This document shows, in pieces, positions 2 to 14,307 of a stretch of 25,850 nucleotides of DNA. The notes below the pieces were generated by a model. It had not been told where the DNA came from. It made no database searches and saw only the letters and a list, made by a program, of their open reading frames with translations. Positions within the stretch are counted from its first letter, which is position 1, and every line of letters starts with the position of its first letter. This DNA comes from a virus. The translations under genes were made by a program, and so were the position numbers. The stretch spans positions 1 to 25,850 of IMG/VR virus record IMGVR_UViG_3300028394_000284; one strand, given 5' to 3'.

Positions 2-83
2 CGCTACGCCCGCCCGAAGAACTGGTACACGCCAAAAAATGTAACTAAACCAAAACGTAACAAAGCCCTAACAAATTGTTAGG
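2..83 (+). CDS. Possible C-terminal end of a rightward gene (partial)
   Basis: One open frame enters from the left edge and ends at a TAG within the hairpin at 64-86. It reads RYARPKNWYTPKN followed by a basic tail, which looks protein-like, but about 27 codons are too few for identification. A second frame (1-48) also ends in a stop just before the hairpin, so the true frame is unsure. It does not continue the gene cut at the right edge of the window: joining the two ends gives no sensible peptidase sequence. Confidence 0.2.
68..82. repeat. Palindrome copy 1 (CTAACA-AAT-TGTTAG)
   Basis: This is a perfect 6-bp inverted repeat around a 3-bp AT spacer. It extends outward to AGCCCTAACA/TGTTAGGGCT (64-86), a 10-bp arm in which only the spacer is unpaired. 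The longer arms could form an RNA hairpin, but no U-tract follows on the plus strand. It is one of four similar sites in the first 1.25 kb. Confidence 0.7.
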
Positions 84-106
84 GCTCAGCAAAATGTAAC
101 AGACGC

Positions 107-131
107 AAAAAAGCCCGCATAAAGCGGGCTT
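107..131 (-). terminator. Intrinsic terminator of the leftward operon
   Basis: On the minus strand, AAGCCCGC pairs with GCGGGCTT across a TTTAT loop, and the 3' arm runs into a stretch of six T (complement of 107-112). It lies 20 bases after the stop of the last leftward gene (151). A GC-rich 8-bp stem plus U-tract is a textbook intrinsic terminator. Confidence 0.88.
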
Positions 132-150
132 AGGGTTAAGAGGGTAAAGG

Positions 151-285
151 TTAGACTTTTTCGACAATGACTTTGACGTCATTCGATATGCAGACTTCAA
201 CCCACTTCATTGCATCAGTATAGTTATCAAAGGTTTTTTCGATAACGCCGAAAATCGTTTCGGGACAGGTAACAATTATTTTCAT
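151..285 (-). CDS. Small hypothetical protein (44 aa), leftward operon gene 3
   Basis: I do not recognise this protein. The start at 285 is chosen because GGGAG sits 8 bases upstream on the minus strand; a longer frame to 339 exists but has no better site and would overlap the upstream gene. The product begins MKIIVTCPETIFGVIEK and reads like a small alpha/beta fold (a beta strand, a helix around YTDAMKWVEVC, then a final VKVIVEKV strand). It follows the previous gene with one base between them, so the two are probably translated from one message. The strong terminator lies just downstream. Confidence 0.6.
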   Translation of the reverse strand: MKIIVTCPETIFGVIEKTFDNYTDAMKWVEVCISNDVKVIVEKV

Positions 286-286
286 T

Positions 287-442
287 TTAAATTCTCCCAA
301 AAGTAACACGGACAAAATCGGTAGTGTTGTTTCCAACACGGCATTGCTCCATTCGCATAGGTAAGAGCGAGGGCAACCAAGGAACAGGGTTTGCCACTAC
401 TAGCAGAGCACGAACTAAAAAAGAATCTTCACGCAAAACCAT
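287..442 (-). CDS. Small hypothetical protein (51 aa), leftward operon gene 2
   Basis: I do not recognise this protein. The start at 442 is supported by GGAG six bases upstream on the minus strand. The product begins MVLREDSFLVRALLVVANPVP and has a moderately hydrophobic, proline-containing first half, not clearly a membrane segment, then a Cys and a polar tail. It lies between tandem hairpins (463-496) and the next gene. Its 3' end contains the ribosome binding site of that gene. Opposite-strand open frames exist here but lack a good binding site. Confidence 0.45.
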   Translation of the reverse strand: MVLREDSFLVRALLVVANPVPWLPSLLPMRMEQCRVGNNTTDFVRVTFGRI

Positions 443-462
443 TTCATTCTCCAAATTAAGGG

Positions 463-477
463 CTAACATTTTGTTAG
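463..477. repeat. Palindrome copy 2 (CTAACA-TTT-TGTTAG)
   Basis: This perfect 6-bp inverted repeat with a 3-bp spacer lies in the gap between two leftward genes. Its last base is shared with the adjacent GGGGAGGG hairpin. It is followed by GGG on the plus strand, as three of the four copies are in their own orientation. Confidence 0.7.
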
Positions 478-496
478 GGGAGGGTTTCCCCTCCCC
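477..496 (-). promoter_or_regulatory. GC-rich hairpin between leftward genes
   Basis: On the minus strand GGGGAGGG pairs perfectly with CCCTCCCC around a GAAA tetraloop, six bases after the stop codon at 503. There is no U-tract, so it is not a standard terminator. GAAA loops on GC stems are very stable, so it may protect or stall the message, or reduce read-through into the two small downstream genes. It directly abuts palindrome copy 2, giving two tandem hairpins. Confidence 0.5.
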
Positions 497-502
497 TCCC
501 GA

Positions 503-1084
503 TTACTTCTTGCTTGCTTCAATCATTGCAAGGTTGACACCAAATTCTGTCAAGCCATTAGCAAGGTATGTCAAAAACTTGCCCTGCTTTTCGTTCAAAC
601 CTTCCTGACGCTTTAAGAACATATAAAGAGCAGTAGATTCCATAATACGCTCATCTACTGATTTATTGTGCTTTGCTTTGCCCTTTGGTGTGCCATCCTC
701 GTTCAATTCCTGAACATCAGGCACTTCGCCGAATAAGCCCAATTCCTTGGCATTATCTTCCGCATACTTGCGAATACGTGCTTTGACAGTGGAGAAATTA
801 GAGTACTTTTTGCCGTGCTTAGCCATATACGCCTTGTCATACTCTGCTTTGAGTAACTTCCATTCGGCATTGACGATTTTGCCCTCGTCTGTCACATCGT
901 CATGATTGAATACATACCACTTTTCAACCCCTAACAATTTGTTAGCCTGCTCTGCATAAAACTGCTCACTGCTCTCACCTATCATCGTGCCATTCGCCGC
1001 ACCCTTGCGAGCTTCGGCTAATAAGTCCTCCCGTGATAATGGTGCAATTACTTGGATGTCTGTTACTGATTGTGTTGCGTTCAT
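503..1084 (-). CDS. Hypothetical protein (193 aa), first gene of the leftward operon
   Basis: This is a solid open frame with GAGG seven bases before the ATG at 1084 on the minus strand. The product is hydrophilic, probably mostly helical and soluble, with many Lys/Glu/Asp and no signal peptide or membrane segment. Residues around 75-110 (KLLKAEYDKAYMAKHGKKY, then KARIRKYAED) are basic and could touch nucleic acid, but no known motif is visible. Palindrome copy 3 lies inside the gene. Its position, divergent from the late genes, suggests an early or regulatory role, which is inference from context only. Confidence 0.75.
   Translation of the reverse strand: MNATQSVTDIQVIAPLSREDLLAEARKGAANGTMIGESSEQFYAEQANKLLGVEKWYVFNHDDVTDEGKIVNAEWKLLKAEYDKAYMAKHGKKYSNFSTVKARIRKYAEDNAKELGLFGEVPDVQELNEDGTPKGKAKHNKSVDERIMESTALYMFLKRQEGLNEKQGKFLTYLANGLTEFGVNLAMIEASKK
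931..945. repeat. Palindrome copy 3 (CTAACA-ATT-TGTTAG), inside a gene
   Basis: This is a perfect copy inside the 193-aa leftward gene, in its N-K-L-L-G codons. In the opposite orientation to the others it is followed by GGGG on the minus strand. A copy inside a reading frame argues against a simple terminator role for the family. Confidence 0.65.
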
Positions 1085-1107
1085 TCTGATACCTCATTAC
1101 ATCTAAC

Positions 1108-1127
1108 ACCTAGAAACCCTGCTAGGT
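1108..1127. promoter_or_regulatory. Operator-like inverted repeat upstream of the leftward operon
   Basis: ACCTAG and CTAGGT form a perfect 6-bp inverted repeat around 8 bases. It lies 24-43 bases upstream of the leftward start codon and downstream of the candidate promoter at 1161-1190. This would be a suitable place for a repressor site or a leader hairpin. Confidence 0.35.
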
Positions 1128-1160
1128 CAGGATACATAGCATTTTGCTTTGTATGATTGG

Positions 1161-1190
1161 ATTTTACCTCAAATCGTACCACAAAATCAA
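1161..1190 (-). promoter_or_regulatory. Candidate sigma70 promoter for the leftward operon
   Basis: On the minus strand TTGATT (complement of 1185-1190) and TAAAAT (complement of 1161-1166) are separated by 18 bases. They match four and five of six consensus positions. It would start transcription near 1154, giving a leader of about 70 bases that includes the ACCTAG inverted repeat. Confidence 0.4.
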
Positions 1191-1224
1191 GTCTATGAGA
1201 AACAAAATTTAATAGGGGCAGGAT

Positions 1225-1239
1225 ATAACAAAATGTTAG
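1225..1239. repeat. Palindrome copy 4 (ATAACA-AAA-TGTTAG), one mismatch
   Basis: This has the same architecture as the other three sites with a single mismatch in the left arm, and is followed by GGGG. It lies in the divergent control region upstream of both the leftward promoter candidate and the terminase genes. Confidence 0.6.
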
Positions 1240-1467: not shown

Positions 1468-1493
1468 TATACATGAAAGACTTGGCATGTATA
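1468..1493. promoter_or_regulatory. 8-bp inverted repeat upstream of the small terminase gene
   Basis: TATACATG (1468-1475) and CATGTATA (1486-1493) are perfect inverted repeats separated by 10 bases, ending 45 bases before the preferred terminase start. The right arm overlaps a TATAAA (1490-1495) that could be a -10 box. A dimeric DNA-binding protein here could control late transcription. An alternative ATG at 1487 lies within the right arm, which is one reason to prefer the later start. Confidence 0.45.
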
Positions 1494-1537
1494 AATTTTT
1501 TCTGTTACATTTCGGCTATCCCTTCTACCGAAGTGCC

Positions 1538-2161
1538 ATGATTCAACTTGTGCCTACTACGGAACATCCTGTTCCTTTTGATTTGTCCGATGAGCAACCT
1601 AAGACTCATGCGGATAGCATAGCTGTCGCTGTAAACACTATTGATCTTATAAATGAGCTTGGGGCCAGCGTAGATTTTGATGACGATGATCTGCATAAAG
1701 CTGCGGATCTGCTCACGGGTGCAACCAAACCAAATGCGCCTAAGACTATATCTAAGTCACACGAAGCGGCGGCGGCCCACCATCTGGTAAAGAAGTTTGA
1801 CTTCCAAGCGTTTGCCGATGCACTACAAGCCAGAAATTTCATAACAAACAAACTCGTGTTGCTTGCGGACAACGGCGACCCGAAGATTGAATTAAAAGCA
1901 CTTGAGCTTTTGGGCAAGCATTCGGACATCGGCCTCTTTACAGAACGCAGCGAGATCACTATCCACCACACAACTTCTGCATCTCTTGAGAATTCCATCA
2001 GAGAAAGAGTTAAACGCTTGCTCAACACCGACGTGTCAGACATCACTCCCTTGGATGATCTGGATGCTCAGTTAGGCGCAGTAAAAACGGAAGAGATACT
2101 TATTGCCGGTTCTGAAATGGAAGACGAAATCCCGGAATCCGAGGTACAAGATAATGAGTGA
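1538..2161 (+). CDS. Terminase small subunit (probable)
   Basis: The small terminase recognises phage DNA and recruits the large subunit for packaging. The call rests on position directly before the large terminase and on the C-terminal half. There GDPKIELKALELLGKHSDIG resembles the helical region of many small terminases, followed by a charged coiled stretch (SLENSIRERVKRLL). At 207 aa the length is normal. The N-terminal 60 residues are acidic (VDFDDDDLH). The frame is open from 1487, but those 17 extra residues are hydrophobic and overlap an inverted repeat; neither start has a strong binding site. The gene overlaps the next by 8 bases. Confidence 0.7.
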   Translation: MIQLVPTTEHPVPFDLSDEQPKTHADSIAVAVNTIDLINELGASVDFDDDDLHKAADLLTGATKPNAPKTISKSHEAAAAHHLVKKFDFQAFADALQARNFITNKLVLLADNGDPKIELKALELLGKHSDIGLFTERSEITIHHTTSASLENSIRERVKRLLNTDVSDITPLDDLDAQLGAVKTEEILIAGSEMEDEIPESEVQDNE

Positions 2162-3674
2162 GATTACTCTAAAAGACATAGAAACACTAATTAACTCGGG
2201 TAAGCTGAGCGAGTCGGACTTACGGGTACTAGAGACACAGCTAACTAAGTTAGAGAAGCTCAAAGAGCGTGAGCTTGCGCAAGAGAAGTTCATTAAGTTT
2301 GTGGAAAGGGTCTGGCCTACCTTCATTTCTGGGGCGCATCACAAAAGAATGGCCAATGCGTTTGAGCGAGTGGCTCGTGGAGAGTGCAAACGACTCATAA
2401 TTAACATGCCACCCCGCCATACTAAGTCAGAATTCGCGTCATACCTGCTTCCTGCATGGTTTTTAGGGCAGTTTCCGGGCAAAAAAGTGATTCAAGCGTC
2501 ACATACTGCTGAATTAGCGGTGGGTTTTGGTCGAAAAGTGCGAAATTTGGTGGATTCTGAGGTCTACCACGAGATTTTTCCTGATTTACACCTGCAAAGT
2601 GATTCAAAAGCTGCCGGGCGGTGGAATACCAGCAAGGGTGGCGACTACTTTGCGATTGGTGTAGGCGGTGCAGTGACCGGTAAAGGTGCTGACGTACTAA
2701 TAATAGATGATCCACACTCAGAACAAGAGGCTGCAATGGCGGCTACCAACCCTGATGTGTATGACAAGGTGTATGAGTGGTACACATCTGGCCCAAGACA
2801 GCGTTTACAGCCGGGCGGGGCTATTGTTATAGTTATGACTCGGTGGTCTCAGCGAGATTTGACCGGTCAAGTGATTAAAGCTGCCGCTTCAAGGAGCGGT
2901 GAAGAGTGGGAAGTCATCGAGTTCCCTGCAATCCTACCAAGTGGCAACCCTCTTTGGCCTCAGTTCTGGTCGATGGAGGAGTTGGATGCGCTTAGGAACG
3001 AACTGCCTAATGCCAAGTGGCAAGCGCAGTACCAACAGAATCCCGTAGGTAATGAGTCAGCTATTGTGAAGCGCGACTGGTGGAAATGGTGGGAACCCAA
3101 TCGTCCCCCCGAGTGTGAGTATGTACTTCAGACATGGGACACGGCGTTTGAGAAAAACAACAGGGCTGACTATTCCGCAGGTACGACGTGGGGGATATTT
3201 ACCAACCAAGAAGATATGACAAAAAATATCATTCTTCTAAACACATATAAGAAGCGTGTTGAGTACCCTGACCTGAAACGAGATGTGCTGGCTGAGTACA
3301 ACATGTTTGAACCAGACGGAGTGCTTATAGAGAAGAAGGCATCCGGAGCGCCGTTGATCTATGACCTAAGAGCAATGGGCATACCTGTGCAGGAGTACAC
3401 GCCGGGTAAGGGCCAAGACAAAATTGCCCGTCTTAACGCAGTCTCAGACATAATCGCGTCTGGGAAAGTATGGGTTCCACAGACTAGGTGGGCTGAAGAA
3501 TTGGTAGATGAAGTTGCGGAGTTCCCATCCGGCGAACACGATGACTTGGTTGACGCAACAACTTTAGCGCTTATGAGGTTTAGACAAGGTGGGTTCTTAC
3601 GCTTACCAAGCGACGAGCCTGAAGACGTTCAGTATTTCAAAGGTAACCGCAACGAGCGGTACTACACAGTGTAA
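2154..3674 (+). CDS. terL: Terminase large subunit (packaging ATPase and nuclease)
   Basis: This motor protein drives DNA into the prohead and cuts it. The ATPase domain shows a non-canonical Walker A (NMPPRHTKSE, about 84-93), a Walker B (VLIIDDP, 181-187) and the coupling motif MTRW (228-231). The nuclease domain shows the expected acidic residues: TWDTAF (D329), LIEKKASG (E393) and HDDLVDAT (about 462-469). At 506 aa it is full length. This architecture matches the phage terminase C-terminal family TIGR01630, by recall. The start at 2154 has GAGG nine bases upstream and overlaps the small-subunit stop. Confidence 0.95.
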   Translation: MSEITLKDIETLINSGKLSESDLRVLETQLTKLEKLKERELAQEKFIKFVERVWPTFISGAHHKRMANAFERVARGECKRLIINMPPRHTKSEFASYLLPAWFLGQFPGKKVIQASHTAELAVGFGRKVRNLVDSEVYHEIFPDLHLQSDSKAAGRWNTSKGGDYFAIGVGGAVTGKGADVLIIDDPHSEQEAAMAATNPDVYDKVYEWYTSGPRQRLQPGGAIVIVMTRWSQRDLTGQVIKAAASRSGEEWEVIEFPAILPSGNPLWPQFWSMEELDALRNELPNAKWQAQYQQNPVGNESAIVKRDWWKWWEPNRPPECEYVLQTWDTAFEKNNRADYSAGTTWGIFTNQEDMTKNIILLNTYKKRVEYPDLKRDVLAEYNMFEPDGVLIEKKASGAPLIYDLRAMGIPVQEYTPGKGQDKIARLNAVSDIIASGKVWVPQTRWAEELVDEVAEFPSGEHDDLVDATTLALMRFRQGGFLRLPSDEPEDVQYFKGNRNERYYTV

Positions 3675-3683
3675 GGACACAAA

Positions 3684-6176
3684 ATGGCAACAAGTTCAAT
3701 GGACAAAGCACTTTATCAAGCACCTATGGGTCTCTCCGACTTAGCAGAACAGCCCGATATTGAAATTGAGATTGAAGACCCCGAGTCAGTTAGCCTGCAA
3801 ATGGGCGACATTGAGATTGACTTAAAACCAAAAAAAGAAACGGCGCAAGACTTTGACGCTAACTTAGCTGAGTACATGGACGAAGCAGAGTTGGACTCGC
3901 TTGGAGCAGACTTAATTGAGGACTTTGGCAAAGACGTAATGGATCGCAAAGATTGGATCAAGACTTATGTTGATGGTCTGAAGTTGCTGGGTTTGAACTA
4001 CGAAGAGCGAACAGAACCTTGGCAGGGCGCTTGTGGTGTATTCCACCCCATGTTGACAGAGTCCGTCGTGCGGTTCCAGTCCGAAGCAATGATGGAGACG
4101 TTCCCAGCAATGGGGCCAGTCAAGACCCAGATTGTTGGCGCAATTAACTTACTTAAAGAAGAAGCTGCCGCCCGCGTGCGCGAGGACATGAACTATCAGT
4201 TAACTGAAGTGATGGTGGAGTATCGCCCCGAGCACGAGAAGATGTTGTGGTCACTGCCCCTCGCAGGTTCAGCGTTTAAGAAGGTGTACTACGACCCAGC
4301 TAAGGGTCGTCAAGTAGCAGTGTTTATTCCCGCTGAAGACATCGTCGTTCCCTACGGGGCTAGTAATCTTGAGTCAGCCGAGCGGGTTGCACATGTTATG
4401 CGTAAGACTGAAAACGAGATCAAGAAGTTGCAAGAAGCCGGGTTCTACATCGACGTGGACTTAGGCGAGCCGACACATGAGTTGGATGATATTGAGAAGC
4501 AAAAAGCTGAAGAGCAGGGTATGTCAGCTATCAACGATGATCGCTTCCGTATCTTGGAGATGCACGTTGACTTGGACTTGGCTGGGTTTGAGCATGAGGA
4601 CAAGAAGGGTAAGAAGACTGGGATTGCGTTACCCTATGTAGTTACTATTGAAAAAGGCACAGGTAAAGTTTTAGCCGTAAGGAGAAATTGGTATGAAGAC
4701 GACGAACTGCACACCAAGCGACAACACTTTGTCCACTACCAATACATCCCCGGATTTGGGTTCTATGGATATGGTCTTATCCACCTTATCGGGGGCTACG
4801 CCAAGTCCGCCACCATGCTCATCCGACAGTTGGTGGATGCTGGCACGCTATCTAACTTACCCGGAGGTCTTAAATCTCGCGGCTTACGCATTAAGGGAGA
4901 CGACACCCCCATCCAGCCCGGAGAGTTTAGAGACGTAGATGTACCAAGCGGATCAATCAGAGACAACATACTACCCCTACCGTATAAAGAACCTAGTCAG
5001 GTTCTGTTTGCACTATTCCAGAACATAGTTCAAGAAGGCCGTGCGTTTGCGTCCAGTGGCGACATGAACGTGTCTGATATGAGTACTAATGCACCGGTAG
5101 GCACAACACTAGCTCTCTTGGAGCGCACTCTTAAAGTGATGACGGCAGTGCAAGCGCGTTTGCACTACACCATGAAACAGGAGTTCAAGCTTCTCAAGAC
5201 CATCATTGCTGACTATACGCCCGAGGAGTACGACTATGAGCCAGAAGATGCAGGTCGTAAGGCCAAGAAATCAGATTACGACAGCACAGAAGTTATTCCT
5301 GTTAGTGATCCAAATGCAGCAACAATGGCACAGAAAATCGTGCAGTATCAAGCAGTTCTTCAGTTGGCTCAGTCTGCACCACAACTCTATAACTTACCTC
5401 TGTTGCATCGTCAGATGATTGAGGTGTTGGGTATCAAGAATGCTAACAAGTTAGTACCGGTGGAAGATGACCAAGTACCTACTGACCCAGTACAGGAGAA
5501 CCAGAATATCCTGATTATGAAGCCGGTCAAGGCGTTTATTGAGCAGAACCACGAAGCTCATATTCAGGCGCACATGGCAGCTATTCAGAATCCAAAGATT
5601 CAACAGTTGATGCAGATGAACCCACAAGCTCAAGCGATCATGGCAGCAGCTATGGCGCACATCAACGAACACATTGCGTTCGAGTATCGCAAGCAAATTG
5701 AGATGTCAATAGGTATGCCGCTACCCACTGAAGAGCAAAACAAACAAGTGGCTCCAGAGTTGGCGGATCGAATTGCAATGATGACCGCGCAAGCGTCACA
5801 GCAGTTGACTCAGCAGGCACAACAGCAAACTCAGCAACAACAGGCTCAACAACAAATGCAGGACCCGATTGTTCAGATGCAGATGCAAGAGTTGCAGATC
5901 AAGCAAGGCGAGTTGCAACTTAAACAGCAGAAGCAACAGATTGACGCTGCGGCAAAAGCAGACCAGATTCGTATTGAGGAGTCCCGTATTGAGGCTCAAA
6001 AAGAAATCGCTGCTATGCAGGTTGGCGCACAGACAGCCGCAAAACGAGATCAGTTAAACAAAAAAATGGAATCCGAAGGGGTTCGTATGGGTATTGATGC
6101 GGCAAAACACAAAGCGCAGATGGCTATGCAGCAAGCGCAACGAAATCAGTCTAACAACAAAGGGGGGAATAAATGA
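3684..6176 (+). CDS. Portal protein with long Gln-rich C-terminal barrel region
   Basis: The portal is the dodecameric ring at one capsid vertex through which DNA enters and leaves. Order after the large terminase, the 830-aa length and the sequence support it. An acidic N-terminus (1-80) is followed by the core (RFQSEAMMETFPAMGPVKTQ; GSAFKKVYYDP; a helix-rich clip/stem section near GFGFYGYGLIHLIGGYAKSA). The C-terminal third is predicted helical and very Gln-rich (about 695-765), as in P22-like portals that carry a long internal barrel. AAGGA precedes the ATG by six bases, and the stop overlaps the next start (ATGA). Confidence 0.9.
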   Translation: MATSSMDKALYQAPMGLSDLAEQPDIEIEIEDPESVSLQMGDIEIDLKPKKETAQDFDANLAEYMDEAELDSLGADLIEDFGKDVMDRKDWIKTYVDGLKLLGLNYEERTEPWQGACGVFHPMLTESVVRFQSEAMMETFPAMGPVKTQIVGAINLLKEEAAARVREDMNYQLTEVMVEYRPEHEKMLWSLPLAGSAFKKVYYDPAKGRQVAVFIPAEDIVVPYGASNLESAERVAHVMRKTENEIKKLQEAGFYIDVDLGEPTHELDDIEKQKAEEQGMSAINDDRFRILEMHVDLDLAGFEHEDKKGKKTGIALPYVVTIEKGTGKVLAVRRNWYEDDELHTKRQHFVHYQYIPGFGFYGYGLIHLIGGYAKSATMLIRQLVDAGTLSNLPGGLKSRGLRIKGDDTPIQPGEFRDVDVPSGSIRDNILPLPYKEPSQVLFALFQNIVQEGRAFASSGDMNVSDMSTNAPVGTTLALLERTLKVMTAVQARLHYTMKQEFKLLKTIIADYTPEEYDYEPEDAGRKAKKSDYDSTEVIPVSDPNAATMAQKIVQYQAVLQLAQSAPQLYNLPLLHRQMIEVLGIKNANKLVPVEDDQVPTDPVQENQNILIMKPVKAFIEQNHEAHIQAHMAAIQNPKIQQLMQMNPQAQAIMAAAMAHINEHIAFEYRKQIEMSIGMPLPTEEQNKQVAPELADRIAMMTAQASQQLTQQAQQQTQQQQAQQQMQDPIVQMQMQELQIKQGELQLKQQKQQIDAAAKADQIRIEESRIEAQKEIAAMQVGAQTAAKRDQLNKKMESEGVRMGIDAAKHKAQMAMQQAQRNQSNNKGGNK

Positions 6177-6780: not shown

Positions 6781-7773
6781 ATGGCAACACAAAAGTTTGA
6801 AGACTCTTATGAGTTTCCCGATGAGAAAGCAGAGAAAGCTGCTGCTGAAGAAAAGTTTGAAGTAGAAATTGAGGACGATACCCCCGCTCAAGATCGTGGC
6901 CGCAAGCCCATGAAAGAGCCAGTAGAAGACCCAACCGAAGACGAATTGGCAACGTACGACGAGAAGGTTCAAGCCCGTATCAAGAAGTTCACCCGTGGCT
7001 ACCACGACGAACGCCGCGCCAAAGAAGAAGCCCTACGCGAACGCGAAGCGGCGGAAAACTTCGCCAAACAAGTCTATAGCGAGAACAAAAGACTTCAACA
7101 ACAGCTTTCTAACGGAAGTAAAGTATACATTGAGCAGTCTCAATCTACCGCCCAATTAGAGCTTGATTCTGCAAAGAAGCGCTATAAAGAAGCCTACGAG
7201 TCTGGCGATGTTGACGCTATTACCGATGCCCAAGCAGAAATTGCTAAGGCTACTCTTAGGATAGACAAAGCTTCTGGACTAAGACCCATTGAGGTTGAAG
7301 AACGTGAGTTTCAAACCGCACAACCAGAAAAACCTAACCTTACCCCCCGCACTAAAAAATGGGTTGAACGTAACAATGATTGGTGGGGGGTTGACGAAGA
7401 AATGACAATGTCTGCTATGGGCATTGACAGGAAGTTACAGAAAGAGTATGGTGCGGACTATGTAGGTACTGAAGAGTACTTTCAAACCATTGATAAAACA
7501 ATGCGCAAAAGATTTCCTGAACACTTTGAAAGTGAACAGAGCTACGAGGAAGACGATCCGCCTCCTAAGAAAAGGGCGTCAGAACCGGAAGAGGAGTATG
7601 AAGATACCCCACGCCGTGCACCAAGAATTACTTCGCCTGTGGCACCAGCCTCACGAAGTACTCCACCTAGTCGTATTCGTTTAAAAGCATCAGAAGCCGC
7701 CACTGCGCGTCGCCTTGGGGTGCCCATCGAAGAATATGCAAGACAGGTTGCTCTACTTAGAAAAGGAACATAA
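6781..7773 (+). CDS. Scaffolding protein (probable)
   Basis: Scaffolds guide capsid assembly and leave the prohead before packaging. This 330-aa protein sits between portal and capsid genes and has the usual composition. It has an acidic low-complexity N-terminus (1-65), a long charged coiled coil (about 75-175, with ENFAKQVYSENKRLQQQLS) and an acidic/proline linker. It ends in a short basic amphipathic helix (RRLGVPIEEYARQVALLRKG) of the sort that binds capsid subunits. AAGGAG precedes the start. I see no protease motif. Confidence rests on context and architecture, not on a diagnostic motif. Confidence 0.75.
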   Translation: MATQKFEDSYEFPDEKAEKAAAEEKFEVEIEDDTPAQDRGRKPMKEPVEDPTEDELATYDEKVQARIKKFTRGYHDERRAKEEALREREAAENFAKQVYSENKRLQQQLSNGSKVYIEQSQSTAQLELDSAKKRYKEAYESGDVDAITDAQAEIAKATLRIDKASGLRPIEVEEREFQTAQPEKPNLTPRTKKWVERNNDWWGVDEEMTMSAMGIDRKLQKEYGADYVGTEEYFQTIDKTMRKRFPEHFESEQSYEEDDPPPKKRASEPEEEYEDTPRRAPRITSPVAPASRSTPPSRIRLKASEAATARRLGVPIEEYARQVALLRKGT

Positions 7774-8276: not shown

Positions 8277-9119
8277 ATGGCTTATCCAGTAGTTGACGCC
8301 CCTTACGGGCTAAAACCATTGAACTTGATTGGTGGTCAAGTATTTGCTGGGAGTACTCGTATGTACCCCATCCAATACGGTTATGCCACTGACATTTTCT
8401 ATGGCGATTTCGTTGTACTATCGCGTGGTAATGTAACCCGTGCTTCAGTTTCTACTGGCACTGGTTTAAACCAAACGGTTGGTATTTTCTTGGGCTGTAC
8501 TTACACAAACCCTTTAACCAAGCAAAAGCAATTTGCCCAATACTGGCCCGCAAGCACCCTCGCAGGTGATTGCCAAGCTTATATATCGGACGATCCTGAT
8601 GCTGTGTTTAAAGCGGTTGTATGTTCCGCCACTACCGCTATTGCTTCCGCTGCTATGGCTATGATTGGTACTAACCTATCTGCCATTAACAATACGGGTA
8701 GCACAACCACCGGCAATTCTGCTAACGCAGTTTTAGCCCCCTCAGCTACTCCTGTAACAACCACCTTACCTTTGCGTTTGGTTGGCTTGGTACAAGAATC
8801 TGCTATTTCAGTAAGCGCAACTGGCTCTTCATCTTCTACAACTATTACCTTAACTGGTTCTGGTTTGCCTAGCGCAATCCCTGTTGGAACAGATGTGGCT
8901 TATGTTGCAGCAAACGGACAAATCATTCAAACAGGTTCTTTTGTAACCACCGCTGCCGCAGCCGCTGCAACGTCAGTTACGATTAACGCTGCGATTGCAG
9001 TCCCCGGCAGTGTTACCGCTATTCCTAGCGCATCCACTATTGTGTTTACCCAGTATCCCGAAGTTTTGGTTAAGTTGAACCAAGGCTTGCATGGTTACTA
9101 CTCTGCCACTGGCGCTTAA
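8277..9119 (+). CDS. Putative head decoration protein
   Basis: This 280-aa protein directly precedes the major capsid gene. Its N-terminal half (APYGLKPLNLIGGQVFAGST, GDFVVLSRG, VGIFLGCTYTNPLTKQKQFAQYWPA) matches a family often found in that position. The second half is Ala/Thr/Ser-rich with beta-strand patterns and one TITLTGSGLP segment, suggesting an extra beta domain. A strong AAAGGAG lies upstream. Capsid cementing or surface decoration is inferred from position and the beta-rich composition. Confidence 0.65.
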   Translation: MAYPVVDAPYGLKPLNLIGGQVFAGSTRMYPIQYGYATDIFYGDFVVLSRGNVTRASVSTGTGLNQTVGIFLGCTYTNPLTKQKQFAQYWPASTLAGDCQAYISDDPDAVFKAVVCSATTAIASAAMAMIGTNLSAINNTGSTTTGNSANAVLAPSATPVTTTLPLRLVGLVQESAISVSATGSSSSTTITLTGSGLPSAIPVGTDVAYVAANGQIIQTGSFVTTAAAAAATSVTINAAIAVPGSVTAIPSASTIVFTQYPEVLVKLNQGLHGYYSATGA

Positions 9120-10101: not shown

Positions 10102-10130
10102 TTGCAAAAGTCATATAGGTTCCGTAGGAT
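10102..10130 (+). promoter_or_regulatory. Candidate promoter for the acidic protein gene
   Basis: TTGCAA (10102-10107) and TAGGAT (10125-10130) are separated by exactly 17 bases and each match four of six sigma70 positions. The site lies just after the capsid terminator and 42 bases before the next start, where a promoter would be needed. A TGCGGC/GCCGCA hairpin (10136-10152) would lie in the leader. Confidence 0.45.
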
Positions 10131-10171
10131 TGTTTTGCGGCATAGGGCCGCACCAAATTAAAGGAGTTTTT

Positions 10172-10564
10172 ATGTACAAGGTTCAGATTAATATTGCCGA
10201 CTGGGATTTCATGGACGATGAAATTTTGACCATCGAGACCAGCGATTTTGAAAAAGTGCAGATCATTCAAGAGTTTATCGAGCTCCAAAAAGATCACGGT
10301 TGGACTGCTGACTACGACATAGTTACAGAATTTGACGATGAAGACGAAGAATACGTTTACGACGAAGATACTGATAGCTGGTATTGGTACGACGAAGACG
10401 CAGACACTTGGTATGTGCACGACGAAGAGTCCGATGATTGGGTTGAGTACGTTGAAGAAGAGTCAGAAGACGAAGAGTCAGAAGACGAAGAGTCAGAAGA
10501 CGAAGAGTCAGAAGACGAAGCTACTACTGTTACTTCATACGTAATTACCCGTATTGAAGAGTGA
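10172..10564 (+). CDS. Highly acidic aromatic-repeat protein
   Basis: I recognise no family. The first 55 residues look like a small folded domain (MYKVQINIADWDFMDDEIL, then KVQIIQEFIELQKDHGW). The rest is extremely acidic. Three imperfect units of about 11 residues follow (YDEDTDSWYW, YDEDADTWYV, HDEESDDWVEY), then four exact ESEDE units encoded by perfect 15-bp DNA repeats, then VTSYVITRIEE. AAAGGAG sits four bases before the ATG at 10172. The gene stands alone between two strong terminators with its own promoter candidate. DNA mimicry, ion binding or a capsid-surface role are possible and unproven. Confidence 0.8.
   Translation: MYKVQINIADWDFMDDEILTIETSDFEKVQIIQEFIELQKDHGWTADYDIVTEFDDEDEEYVYDEDTDSWYWYDEDADTWYVHDEESDDWVEYVEEESEDEESEDEESEDEESEDEATTVTSYVITRIEE
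10457..10516 (+). repeat. Four perfect tandem 15-bp repeats encoding ESEDE
   Basis: The unit GAAGAGTCAGAAGAC occurs four times with no substitution. Perfect nucleotide identity implies recent expansion or frequent slippage, so copy number probably varies between relatives. Confidence 0.92.
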
Positions 10565-10572
10565 ACGGAAAG

Positions 10573-10959
10573 TTACACTTCTTGTAACTTGATGGGGGCT
10601 TCGGCCTCCATTTTTTTTGCATGGCGTTCGTTATAGTGGAAAACCCTATGGCAGTTCGCACACAGCACTAAACACTGCTCAACTTCTTCCAACGCTTTTC
10701 TGTAGCTTTTGGCCCGTACAAGTCGATGAACACTCTCGTTCTTCATTTCGGGGTCTATGTGGTGAAAATCTAAAGTTGCTGGGTGGCTAGTTCCGCATTC
10801 AAGACAAGATAGCGTGTCCTTGAAGTCCTTCCACTTTTGTTTGAAGCAACCCTTTGTTTTCTTGGTCGCGGCTTTGACCTTATTCACGTTTCCATCGTAG
10901 TGCTTCTTGGAGTAGCCCTGTTGCTTTTCTTTCTTTTTTAATGGGTCTTTGTAAGGCAT
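10573..10959 (-). CDS. HNH endonuclease (leftward, free-standing)
   Basis: HNH enzymes cut or nick DNA; free-standing ones in phages are often homing endonucleases. The 128-aa protein has a basic N-terminal half (KKKEKQQGYSKKHYDG), a zinc-binding CLEC (C52, C55), the DFHHIDP core (64-70) and a CANCHRVFH closing motif (C100, C103, H104, H108). It is complete. It is transcribed against the late genes, has no clear ribosome binding site, and its start abuts the -35 box of the next rightward promoter, all consistent with an inserted selfish gene. No split gene or intron is evident around it. Confidence 0.9.
   Translation of the reverse strand: MPYKDPLKKKEKQQGYSKKHYDGNVNKVKAATKKTKGCFKQKWKDFKDTLSCLECGTSHPATLDFHHIDPEMKNESVHRLVRAKSYRKALEEVEQCLVLCANCHRVFHYNERHAKKMEAEAPIKLQEV
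10593..10618 (+). terminator. Rightward terminator with UUCG loop inside the HNH gene
   Basis: GGGGGC pairs with GCCTCC (one G-U) around a TTCG tetraloop, extended by a T-A pair, and is followed by eight T. It ends transcription of the acidic protein gene. It lies within the last codons of the convergent HNH gene, so the same bases encode the peptide MEAEAP on the other strand. A second inverted repeat, AAGTTACA/TGTAACTT (10570-10590), lies just before it. Confidence 0.88.
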
Positions 10960-11618: not shown

Positions 11619-11911
11619 TGCAACAGACAGACGTAAAGGCGGCGCACTTAACTGCCGCTGGATCTTTTATATTGGGACGCACACGCCTCAAAGGTATTGT
11701 GGTCAGTCCTAAAGCAAGCACAGCCGCAACATTTGAGATTCGTGATGGCAGCGCTACTGGCGCTGTTTTGTTTACGATGGATATTGCCAGTGTTAGCACT
11801 CCTGTGAACTTCAACATCACGATACCCGGTGAAGGTATTTTGGCAACTACAGGACTGCACCTGACAACCAGCGTTGGTACTGTTGTGGGCATTGAAGTGT
11901 TCTATGGCTAA
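11618..11911 (+). CDS. Small beta-rich structural protein (97 aa)
   Basis: The 97-aa product is Ala/Thr/Val/Gly-rich with regular strand patterns (RLKGIVVSPKASTAATFEIRDG, FNITIPGEGILATTGLHL, VVGIEVFYG). It reads like a single small beta-sandwich, as in phage decoration or fibre-associated domains. GGGG lies seven bases before the ATG, partly within the hairpin described at 11572-11618. The stop overlaps the next gene start. A virion role is inferred from neighbours. Confidence 0.7.
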   Translation: MQQTDVKAAHLTAAGSFILGRTRLKGIVVSPKASTAATFEIRDGSATGAVLFTMDIASVSTPVNFNITIPGEGILATTGLHLTTSVGTVVGIEVFYG

Positions 11912-12227
11912 GTCCCCAGCATGGACGCGCAAGGAAGGGAAGAATCCGAGCGGAGGCTTAAACGCCAAAGGTCGGGCTTCCTACAACGCAGCGAATCCCG
12001 GGAAGCCGGGGCTAAAAGCTCCTCAACCCAAGGGCGGCAGCAGGCGAGACTCTTTCTGCGCCCGTATGAAAGGGATGAAAGCGAAATTGACGAGCGCAGA
12101 AACCGCAAGGGATCCCGATTCGAGGATTAACAAGAGTCTACGGGCTTGGAATTGCGCTGATGGCGGGTATGTAACGGACGCTGATGGTTGTGCTACCAGC
12201 GGCAGAACGAAGGGTAGGTTTGTATGA
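11904..12227 (+). CDS. Basic small protein with KSPAWTRKEGKNPSGG motif and C-terminal tag
   Basis: The 107-aa protein starts at 11904, overlapping the previous stop. It has a strongly patterned sequence: KSPAWTRKEGKNPSGGLNAKGRASYN, then GGSRRDSFCARMKGMK, then DPDSRINKSLRAWNCADGG. I recall this as a conserved phage domain of unknown function (possibly DUF6321; name not certain). It is Arg/Lys/Gly-rich and probably binds nucleic acid or an acidic surface. The last residues, ADGCATSGRTKGRFV, are the first of four related tails in this region. The binding site is weak, so translation is likely coupled. Confidence 0.75.
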   Translation: MAKSPAWTRKEGKNPSGGLNAKGRASYNAANPGKPGLKAPQPKGGSRRDSFCARMKGMKAKLTSAETARDPDSRINKSLRAWNCADGGYVTDADGCATSGRTKGRFV

Positions 12228-12430
12228 CTGAGCAAACAGACACCGTAAAAAATATGTTAGACATCGTGGCAGTTTTTACCACCCTCGGTACATTCTTAAA
12301 TTTGCTTACTCCTGTATTTGGCTTGATTGGCGCAATAGTGGGTGTCATGCGTATTTACGAGATGGCTACAGGCAAAGAGTTTTCCGCACTGTGGCGCAAA
12401 AAGAAGGCAGACGATGCCAGCGACAAGTAA
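12224..12430 (+). CDS. Small membrane protein (holin candidate)
   Basis: This 68-aa protein overlaps the previous stop as ATGA. Residues 10-46 are hydrophobic (MLDIVAVFTTLGTFLNLLTPVFGLIGAIVGVM, given here only as position and composition plus the end motif MRIYEMATGK), enough for one long or two short membrane helices. A basic tail (WRKKKADDASDK) follows. Size and layout fit a small holin, but a clear three-helix holin lies near 25224. It may instead be a membrane-acting virion or ejection protein. The gene overlaps the next by 17 bases. Confidence 0.6.
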   Translation: MTEQTDTVKNMLDIVAVFTTLGTFLNLLTPVFGLIGAIVGVMRIYEMATGKEFSALWRKKKADDASDK

Positions 12431-13076
12431 AAAGCAAAAAACCTTTATGGATGCTGTGGCTCATAACCCAGCATTTGCAAAGAAAGTTGGAGTCCCTAAA
12501 GCTGTAGGCAAGGACTTTAGCGAGGCCAGCAAAGGCATGAAGTTTGGTAAGGGTTCCACAACCCGTGCTGATCGACAAACAATCAACAATCCTAAAACCA
12601 ATCAAGGTAAACAGGAACTTTTTAAAGAAGGTGGCAGCATGGCAACGAAAATGAACCCCGGTTTTATGGCAATGATGGCTAAGAAAAAAGCTGGAAGCGG
12701 CAAAATGGCTGCTTTTGAAAAGTCCGGCAAAGACGTTGAAATGAAGGGCGTTAAAGAAGGCTCTCCTAAAGACCGCGCAATGGACAAAAAGCAAATGGCA
12801 ATGAAAAAAGGCGGCATGGCTGGCGGTGGTATGCCCATGAAAGACGGTAAACCCGCTTTTATTGGTGACGGTAAGGGCGCAATGAAAAAAGGTGGCATGG
12901 CTAGTGGAATGCATAAGATGCCTGATGGCAAGATGATGAAAGATTCCGCCATGAAGAAAATAAACATGGGTGGTATGGCTAAAGGCGGTTCAGTCTCTGC
13001 TCGTGCCGACGGTGTTGCCACTAAAGGCAAGACAAAGGGCAAAATGCTCGCTAAGGGCGGCAAAGCGTATTGTTAA
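12414..13076 (+). CDS. Met/Lys/Gly-rich basic protein with C-terminal RADG tag
   Basis: The start at 12414 (AAGG six bases upstream) gives MPATSKKQKTFMDAVAHNP, an N-terminal module I recall from aquatic phages. Residues 1-60 look folded (AFAKKVGVPKAVGKDFSEA). From about 75 the protein is low-complexity: about 26 Met in 220 residues and repeated KKGGM/GGMA motifs (MKKGGMAGG, MKKGGMASG). The tail is SARADGVATKGKTKGKM followed by a short AKGGKAYC. It is very basic and probably disordered or DNA-associated. Function unknown; a virion-internal, ejected or DNA-condensing protein is the inference. Confidence 0.75.
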   Translation: MPATSKKQKTFMDAVAHNPAFAKKVGVPKAVGKDFSEASKGMKFGKGSTTRADRQTINNPKTNQGKQELFKEGGSMATKMNPGFMAMMAKKKAGSGKMAAFEKSGKDVEMKGVKEGSPKDRAMDKKQMAMKKGGMAGGGMPMKDGKPAFIGDGKGAMKKGGMASGMHKMPDGKMMKDSAMKKINMGGMAKGGSVSARADGVATKGKTKGKMLAKGGKAYC

Positions 13077-13091
13077 TTTAAGGAGTAAATC

Positions 13092-13754
13092 ATGGCAAAA
13101 GCAAGAGATTTAGCAGCATTGGCGGGTTTAGCGGGTCTAGCTTATGCCATGCGCAATAAGGGTGAAAGCAAAACCGACACGGGCGACGAAACAGATCGTT
13201 TGGCGGCGCGTAAACCCGCCCCTATTACTGACACCGGGGATGAAACAGATCGTCTTTTGGCCCGTTCGCCAACTCCCGATTACAGCAACGAAGGGCGCAA
13301 CAAACCATTAAAAGTTTCCCCTCCTGTTGCTCCGCCAAAACCCACCGTTGCCGAAGATGTTATTCCTACCAAACCTTTGGCTACTTCCACACAGCGTACT
13401 GACCAGCTTGCTAATCTTTCACGTGCAGTAAAACGCGAAGATAAGACAAAGAATTATGCCAAAGGCGAGTTTGAGGATCTCACCCGAGATGCAGGAGATG
13501 ATAGCCCAACGGCTATAAAAGCCAAGAAACTTTATGACACCTTAGATAAAAAAGCCGGGGCCCCGACATCAAGCGCTCAAAAAACTGACGCACTTGCAGT
13601 AGCGTCCCGAGCAGCAGCAGCAGCCGATAGGCAACGCAAAATGGCTAAACAAGGCGCATATAAATCTGGCGGGATGGTGTCTAAAGTTTCGTCTGCCTCT
13701 AGCCGCGCTGACGGGATTGCCACCAAAGGCAAAACACGCGGCAAAATTTGTTAA
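13092..13754 (+). CDS. Basic linker protein with hydrophobic N-terminus and RADG tag
   Basis: AAGGAG precedes the ATG by six bases. Residues 5-20 are hydrophobic and small (DLAALAGLAGLAYAM), perhaps a membrane or helix-packing segment. Two copies of TDTGDETDRL-x-AR follow (about 28-60), then a proline-rich stretch (VSPPVAPPKPTV) and a polar helical region. The protein ends SSRADGIATKGKTRGKIC, nearly identical in type to the next gene. No enzyme motif is visible. It is 220 aa long and likely mostly disordered. A virion role is inferred from location. Confidence 0.72.
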   Translation: MAKARDLAALAGLAGLAYAMRNKGESKTDTGDETDRLAARKPAPITDTGDETDRLLARSPTPDYSNEGRNKPLKVSPPVAPPKPTVAEDVIPTKPLATSTQRTDQLANLSRAVKREDKTKNYAKGEFEDLTRDAGDDSPTAIKAKKLYDTLDKKAGAPTSSAQKTDALAVASRAAAAADRQRKMAKQGAYKSGGMVSKVSSASSRADGIATKGKTRGKIC

Positions 13755-13764
13755 GGGGTAAATC

Positions 13765-14307
13765 ATGGCAACAAGCAGTTTTGGAAAAGCATTTAAAGCG
13801 GCTCGCGACGCAGGCGAAAAAGAATTTGAGTTTGGCGGGAAAAAGTACAACACAAAAATAAAGGACGAAGATTCAGAGAAATCTGAACGTACTGCCGAGC
13901 AGCGGAAAAAAAGCGACACGATGACCTCTCTAATGTCGGCTGAGCGAAACATGCCAGAAGGCACTTCAGATTTGGCAAAACAAAAAATTAAGGAAGCTGT
14001 TGGTAATGCGCAGCGCAACTATGCAGGAAACCCGCCTAAAGGCGTAAACGCAATTGATAAGGGCGGCGCAAGTCGTTCTTTAAAAGTTTTAGAAGATCGT
14101 GATAAAGATACAGAGCGTTCAAACATTAAAGCTGCCGCAGATGATATGCGCGGTAGAAAAATGGAAGGTGAAATTCTGAACAACATGATTACCAACCCCC
14201 CAATGAAAAAAGGCGGAATGGTAAAGATGGCTTCCGGCGGTATGACAGCTTCCAGTCGTGCTGATGGCTGTTGCGTCAAGGGCAAAACTCGCGGAAAGAT
14301 GGTGTAA
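13765..14307 (+). CDS. Basic protein with SFGKAFKAARDAG module and RADG tag
   Basis: AAGGGG lies six bases upstream. The N-terminus SFGKAFKAARDAGEKEFEF plus GGKKYNTKIK is a compact module that I recall from many phage virion or lysis-associated proteins, of unknown role. The middle (45-140) is charged and helical. The C-terminus has MKKGGMVKMASGG and ends SSRADGCCVKGKTRGKMV. It shares its tail with the two preceding large basic genes although the bodies are unrelated. At 180 aa it appears complete. Confidence 0.74.
   Translation: MATSSFGKAFKAARDAGEKEFEFGGKKYNTKIKDEDSEKSERTAEQRKKSDTMTSLMSAERNMPEGTSDLAKQKIKEAVGNAQRNYAGNPPKGVNAIDKGGASRSLKVLEDRDKDTERSNIKAAADDMRGRKMEGEILNNMITNPPMKKGGMVKMASGGMTASSRADGCCVKGKTRGKMV

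Follow-up and report, generated by a model that had tools for sequence, protein, structure and literature searches.

Dispersed TAACA palindromes with lineage-specific spacers in the early region of an uncultured phage group, and a 193-aa candidate cognate protein

Organization of the locus

The window, by which we mean the whole stretch of DNA analysed, is a 25,850-bp fragment of an uncultured virus. This virus is a tailed phage, as terminase and portal genes are present, and no near match to it was found among 50,697 phage records. The left end of the window is organized as follows:

68..82, no strand: site 1, CTAACAAATTGTTAG, a perfect CTAACA-N3-TGTTAG
111..131, minus strand: hairpin with T-tail resembling an intrinsic terminator, at the downstream end of the leftward transcription unit
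463..477, no strand: site 2, CTAACATTTTGTTAG, a perfect CTAACA-N3-TGTTAG immediately downstream of the 193-aa gene
503..1084, minus strand: gene of the 193-aa candidate cognate regulator, the first early gene, transcribed away from the terminase
931..945, no strand: site 3, CTAACAATTTGTTAG, a perfect CTAACA-N3-TGTTAG within the candidate regulator gene, in the codons for ..NKLL..
1161..1190, minus strand: promoter-like TTGATT-18-TAAAAT for the candidate regulator gene, with site 4 about 35 bp upstream of it; a consensus match only, of a kind found no more often than expected by chance
1225..1239, no strand: site 4, ATAACAAAATGTTAG, with one mismatch (left arm ATAACA)
1487..2161, plus strand: ORF without a database match, placed where a small terminase gene would be expected; it opens the divergent late/structural unit
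2157..3674, plus strand: gene of the terminase large subunit, which served as anchor in the retrieval of relatives

Several genes of the structural region can also be mentioned. An acidic ORF with DEDADTWY-type and ESEDE repeats (10130-10564) comes directly after a 303-aa ORF at the capsid-gene position, and an HNH-endonuclease-like gene (10573-10959, minus strand) is surrounded by structural genes on the plus strand, an arrangement that would fit a mobile, homing-type insertion. Four small ORFs (11874-12227, 12342-13076, 13092-13754 and 13765-14307) have in common a C-terminal RADGxxxKGKT(R/K)GK-type motif, which is looser in the first of them, and look like tandemly arranged members of one family of small, lysine-rich proteins of the structural region. 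A 2OG-Fe(II) oxygenase-like gene (PF13759; 23221-23952) is found close to the right end of this region.

The four palindromes had been noticed in a sequence-only reading of the window, and a rescan confirmed their positions, the three perfect copies and the single mismatch of the fourth, as well as the 3-bp spacers made of A and T only. Over the 13-bp core, TAACA-N3-TGTTA, the four sites have no mismatch. Shuffling of the sequence gave a mean of 0.06 core matches and none of the 100 shuffles reached four, by which a chance origin of the sites was rejected. The absence of any further core copy from the remaining 24.6 kb was likewise borne out; the next best match, at 8722, has two mismatches, and from the ORF at 1487..2161 onward the window is free of sites. 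The GGGG flank that had been described for three sites is indeed there, these sites reading TTAGGGG if the last G of the palindrome is counted. Nevertheless the flank is missing at most sites of the relatives and therefore has to be considered as lying outside the motif.

Site 1 is nested in a longer palindrome, AGCCCTAACA-AAT-TGTTAGGGCT, which also resembles a minus-strand terminator. The relatives G010 and G005 have a similarly extended palindrome whose spacer is 1 bp. The palindrome of site 2 contains a minus-strand ATG. Site 3 has a counterpart at 31596 in the relative G001, and site 4 occupies the divergent control region between the candidate regulator gene and the small-terminase-like ORF, with a matching G001 site at 31294. 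The intragenic position of one copy (931-945, inside the 193-aa ORF) had been taken as a sign that the palindromes are not simply terminators. This holds also for the relatives, where sites are found within genes and promoters, and a role as terminators only was rejected: one extended site is terminator-like, but others lie in genes or promoters.

Site arrays and spacer classes in related phages

When the scan for the motif was extended to related genomes, as the sequence-only reading had advised, the sites were found to be conserved in close relatives and absent from the structural half of their genomes. The nearest long relative, G001 (61,390 bp, with a terminase 95% identical to that of the window), has 16 TAACA-N3-TGTTA sites. 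All of them are located between 31.3 and 42.9 kb, in 11.6 kb of an early region which begins with the counterpart of the 193-aa gene, and the structural half has none. The window shows, then, only the edge of a site array. Two fragments, G002 and G003, have 4 and 14 sites of the same form.

Twenty other relatives seemed to be devoid of TAACA-N3-TGTTA. An unbiased scan for over-represented palindromes revealed in them TAACA-N1-TGTTA (19 copies in G010, 12 in G016 and 16 in G005) and TAACA-N2-TGTTA (18 in G008, 14 in G009, 11 in G011 and 17 in G004), with less than 0.1 copies expected in each case. The N3 form is therefore missing from most of these genomes because the same half-site has a different gap there. 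Across the relatives the half-site (C)TAACA is kept, about 12-20 sites are present in each, and the spacer, almost always composed of A or T, has a lineage-specific length of 1, 2 or 3 bp. Two-fold symmetry is seen in all the spacer classes, and in spacer-1 and spacer-2 relatives the sites are likewise on the early side. The spacing is not absolute, since several spacer-2 genomes also carry spacer-1 or spacer-3 sites; G011, for instance, is mixed, with 11 spacer-2 and 6 spacer-1 sites. Rare variants of the half-site were found as well, namely CTCACA with spacer 1 (nine copies in locus L107), CTGACA with spacer 2 (three copies in L065) and GTAACA/GGAACA-type palindromes with spacer 1 (L090 and L095). 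RNA hairpins were rejected as an explanation of the repeats, because the 1-bp spacer class could not close a loop.

One relative, G013 (loci L143, L144, L130 and L131), has no TAACA sites; its regulator slot is taken by an unrelated 169-aa protein, present twice (49338-50908 and elsewhere). It has an over-represented palindrome of its own, GGGTTAACCC, in four copies at 7234, 48385, 52140 and 54714. Protein and palindrome may form another regulator/operator pair that occupies this position.

Among cultured phages neither a near match to the window nor a match to the candidate regulator was found. The cultured terminase relatives, DSL-LC04 and HTVC027P (54-58%), have no obvious common early layout, as judged from annotation only. 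A lookup of genome contigs for a prophage or host yielded nothing beyond six relatives on MAG contigs, all more distant (59-73% identity).

Position of the sites

The positions of 123 early-region sites were surveyed in eight genomes. A start codon, formed by the last spacer base and TG, is inside the palindrome in 35 of them, where 1.3 would be expected by chance, and in 27 the TAA of the palindrome is the stop codon of the upstream gene. About 39 sites, roughly a third, are intragenic. The start-codon site of an early gene of about 400 aa is kept, across three different spacers, in G001, G004, G005, G008, G009 and G011. Upstream of the start of the candidate regulator, the control region holds a site, judging by position, in seven of the eight genomes. 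Moreover, two G001 promoters of the form TTGATT-17-TATAAT have the palindrome within the promoter spacer. Only 3 of the 66 strong promoter-like sites in the examined genomes overlap a palindrome, which along with the large intragenic share means that control of initiation alone would be insufficient. The sites have no fixed orientation and are dispersed over about 7-15 kb instead of being clustered, tight clustering at an initiator-bound origin being the mark of replication iterons.

The frequent start and stop codons could be explained if the sites were translation-initiation elements working at the mRNA level, in the manner of the start-associated sequences of cluster K mycobacteriophages. 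Those are non-palindromic and lie on the non-structural side, close upstream of starts (PMC3203893); the inverted repeats of Microbacterium cluster EG phages are also on the non-structural side and often near start codons (PMC7302621). The sites described here resemble both in being on that side and often near starts. However, the repeats of clusters K and EG precede starts by a few to about 20 bp (PMC3203893, PMC7302621), whereas here the start codon is within the palindrome and many sites are elsewhere, and unlike those of cluster K they are palindromic. A role in translation is very unlikely, as 88 of the 123 sites are away from start codons, some being in promoters or inside genes, the two-fold symmetry persists where there is no start codon, and no hairpin can form in the 1-bp spacer class.

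Coupling between the sites and the 193-aa gene

The 193-aa protein belongs to a fast-evolving family with 85 distinct members, and the sequence of the family tracks the spacing of the sites. Of the loci anchored by the terminase, 54 offered 1.8 kb or more of upstream DNA, some of these loci being related to each other; 38 have both the family and the sites, 12 have neither, 3 have the gene only and 1 has the sites only. Two of the three gene-only loci, L090 and L095, are those carrying the variant GTAACA/GGAACA-type palindrome. In L070 the regulator slot holds an unrelated protein, and three spacer-1 sites are nonetheless present. As an independent test of the coupling, 46 contigs unused before were fetched by the regulator sequence alone, with single proteins as queries, and in a tally by hand two or more sites with a common spacing were present in 44 of them. 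A separate contig, encoding a protein of the L107 (CTCACA-class) type at 85% identity, again has eight CTCACA sites. The regulator tree requires 8 changes of spacer class and the terminase tree of the same phages 13; for the 85 regulators the number is 11, against 30 with shuffled labels; these changes, like the locus counts above, are not fully independent since related sequences are included.

Locus L051 has two diverged copies of the family (3292-3783 and 4467-5042) about 0.7 kb apart, and eleven spacer-1 sites. A duplication toward a new specificity is a possible explanation for this pair.

The comparison of G001 (spacer 3) with G004 (spacer 2) is the most direct. Their core and early genes are 52-91% identical whereas the candidate regulators are only 14% identical, and the sites at matching positions, e.g. 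TAACAAAATGTTA in one and TAAC-AAATGTTA in the other, are one spacer base apart. Two other early proteins, a ribbon-helix-helix-like one of 70 aa and an HTH-like one of 79 aa, resemble DNA-binding proteins and are kept in almost every genome. One of them might thus be the binder, the 193-aa protein being merely linked to the sites or a partner. This is improbable, because each is 86% identical between G001 and G004 and so does not follow the spacing. Moreover G013 encodes both and G015 the 79-aa protein, although neither genome has the sites.

Operators for a host transcription factor, which the sequence-only reading had allowed for, are hardly credible, given that near relatives with terminases up to 95% identical differ in spacer (3 in the window and 2 in L032) and that the spacer follows the phage gene. 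Operators for a phage regulator, proposed in the same reading, are the best-supported interpretation. Taken together, the co-occurrence, the contigs fetched by the regulator, the trees and the G001/G004 pair make the family of the 193-aa protein (503-1084) the best candidate for the binder.

The 193-aa protein

AlphaFold models of the window protein (pLDDT 86) and of a spacer-2 member (pLDDT 82) are all-helical or nearly so. Neither model matched any fold in the PDB, and the model of the window protein had no match in a viral structure library. Sequence and fold searches of the family against Pfam, PHROGs and PDB gave no recognisable DNA-binding domain and no consistent family. Weak matches to integrase SAM-like and XerC-like domains were obtained, which can serve as a lead only. 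As no such domain is recognisable, DNA binding by this protein is inferred from the coupling described above.

Comparison with known dispersed repeats

The nearest known form is the 17-bp palindrome of the cluster O mycobacteriophages (Corndog), TGTTCGG-NNN-CCGAACA, of which more than 30 dispersed copies exist, also in structural genes (PMC4351075). Its arms are 3 A/T-rich bp apart, mostly AAA/TTT; five phages with one common consensus were described, no spacer-length classes were reported and the cognate protein was not identified (PMC4351075). The repeats of the present phages are likewise dispersed inverted arms, with a 3-bp A/T-rich spacer in the lineage of the window (1 or 2 bp in relatives). 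They too are a mix of intergenic, gene-5'-end and intragenic copies without clear orientation, and their two-fold symmetry suggests a dimeric binder. They differ in having (C)TAACA arms, rarely CTCACA or CTGACA, instead of TGTTCGG, in being confined to early genes, in their lineage-specific spacer length and in that a cognate gene can be proposed.

Cluster A stoperators are asymmetric 13-mers oriented with transcription, to which a monomeric two-domain HTH repressor of temperate phages binds (PMC6550527, PMC9283540). The two systems are alike in their many dispersed short sites (here 12-20 per genome) at promoters and gene junctions, in a consensus which evolves with the repressor or its candidate, and in the proposed roadblock to elongation. 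On the other hand, here the sites are two-fold symmetric in all classes and the 193-aa candidate has no HTH match (Pfam, PHROG, PDB). A further difference is that no tyrosine integrase (PF00589) was found in nine relatives, whose records may be incomplete; nor was a ParA-type ATPase (PF13614) found in these same, possibly incomplete, records. Given these two negative results, lysogenic immunity as the main role is unsupported. Partition sites, another suggestion of the sequence-only reading, are disfavoured by the missing ATPase. Replication sites, named in the same reading, may be considered, although no positive evidence for them was obtained.

Proposed role of the sites

The four repeats of the window are probably operators of a dispersed early-region regulon, to which a dimer of the 193-aa protein would most likely bind, damping early transcription. 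A dimer with one subunit per TAACA half-site fits the symmetry of the sites. It may occupy about 12-20 sites in an early-gene stretch of roughly 7-15 kb, with positions close to its own promoter region, at the two strong-looking early promoters of G001, at start/stop codon junctions and in gene interiors. The bound protein is expected to repress rather than activate, damping or blocking transcription at initiation and, at the intragenic sites, as a roadblock to elongation. It could thereby control its own synthesis as the infection leaves the early phase. The confinement to the early region and the sites at junctions, at promoters and near the regulator gene fit such an autoregulated silencing of early transcription.

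The 193-aa protein might instead bind the sites as a factor for genome organization, replication or DNA marking (compaction, origin handling or nuclease protection), as palindromic sites without fixed orientation, many of them intragenic, would permit. The authors describing the cluster O palindrome also thought transcriptional regulation unlikely for similar repeats (PMC4351075). We consider such a function unlikely, though it deserves some weight: the sites avoid the structural half, fall at start/stop junctions far above chance and in two cases are in promoter spacers, and a ParA-type partner was not found in the nine relatives.

If the 193-aa family is the repressor, the same kind of protein would recognize an unchanged half-site in other lineages, with the halves 1, 2 or 3 bp apart, so that the protein and all its sites change together. 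We suggest tentatively that it has an undescribed DNA-binding fold whose specificity shifts mainly through the distance between half-sites, all 12-20 operators following. The spacer may then define cross-regulation groups, similar to immunity groups, among close relatives.

In several phages dispersed short palindromes have been seen for which neither binder nor role is known, and no paper on spacer-length variants of phage operators was found. What is new here is the polymorphism in spacer length and a candidate cognate protein without recognisable family or fold. Here the comparison of genomes allows a putative binder to be named, and this in a widespread group of uncultured phages. The natural regulator-site pairs with 1-, 2- and 3-bp spacers would allow a direct test of how the spacing specificity of a dimer evolves, and of how a dozen or more sites can change together.
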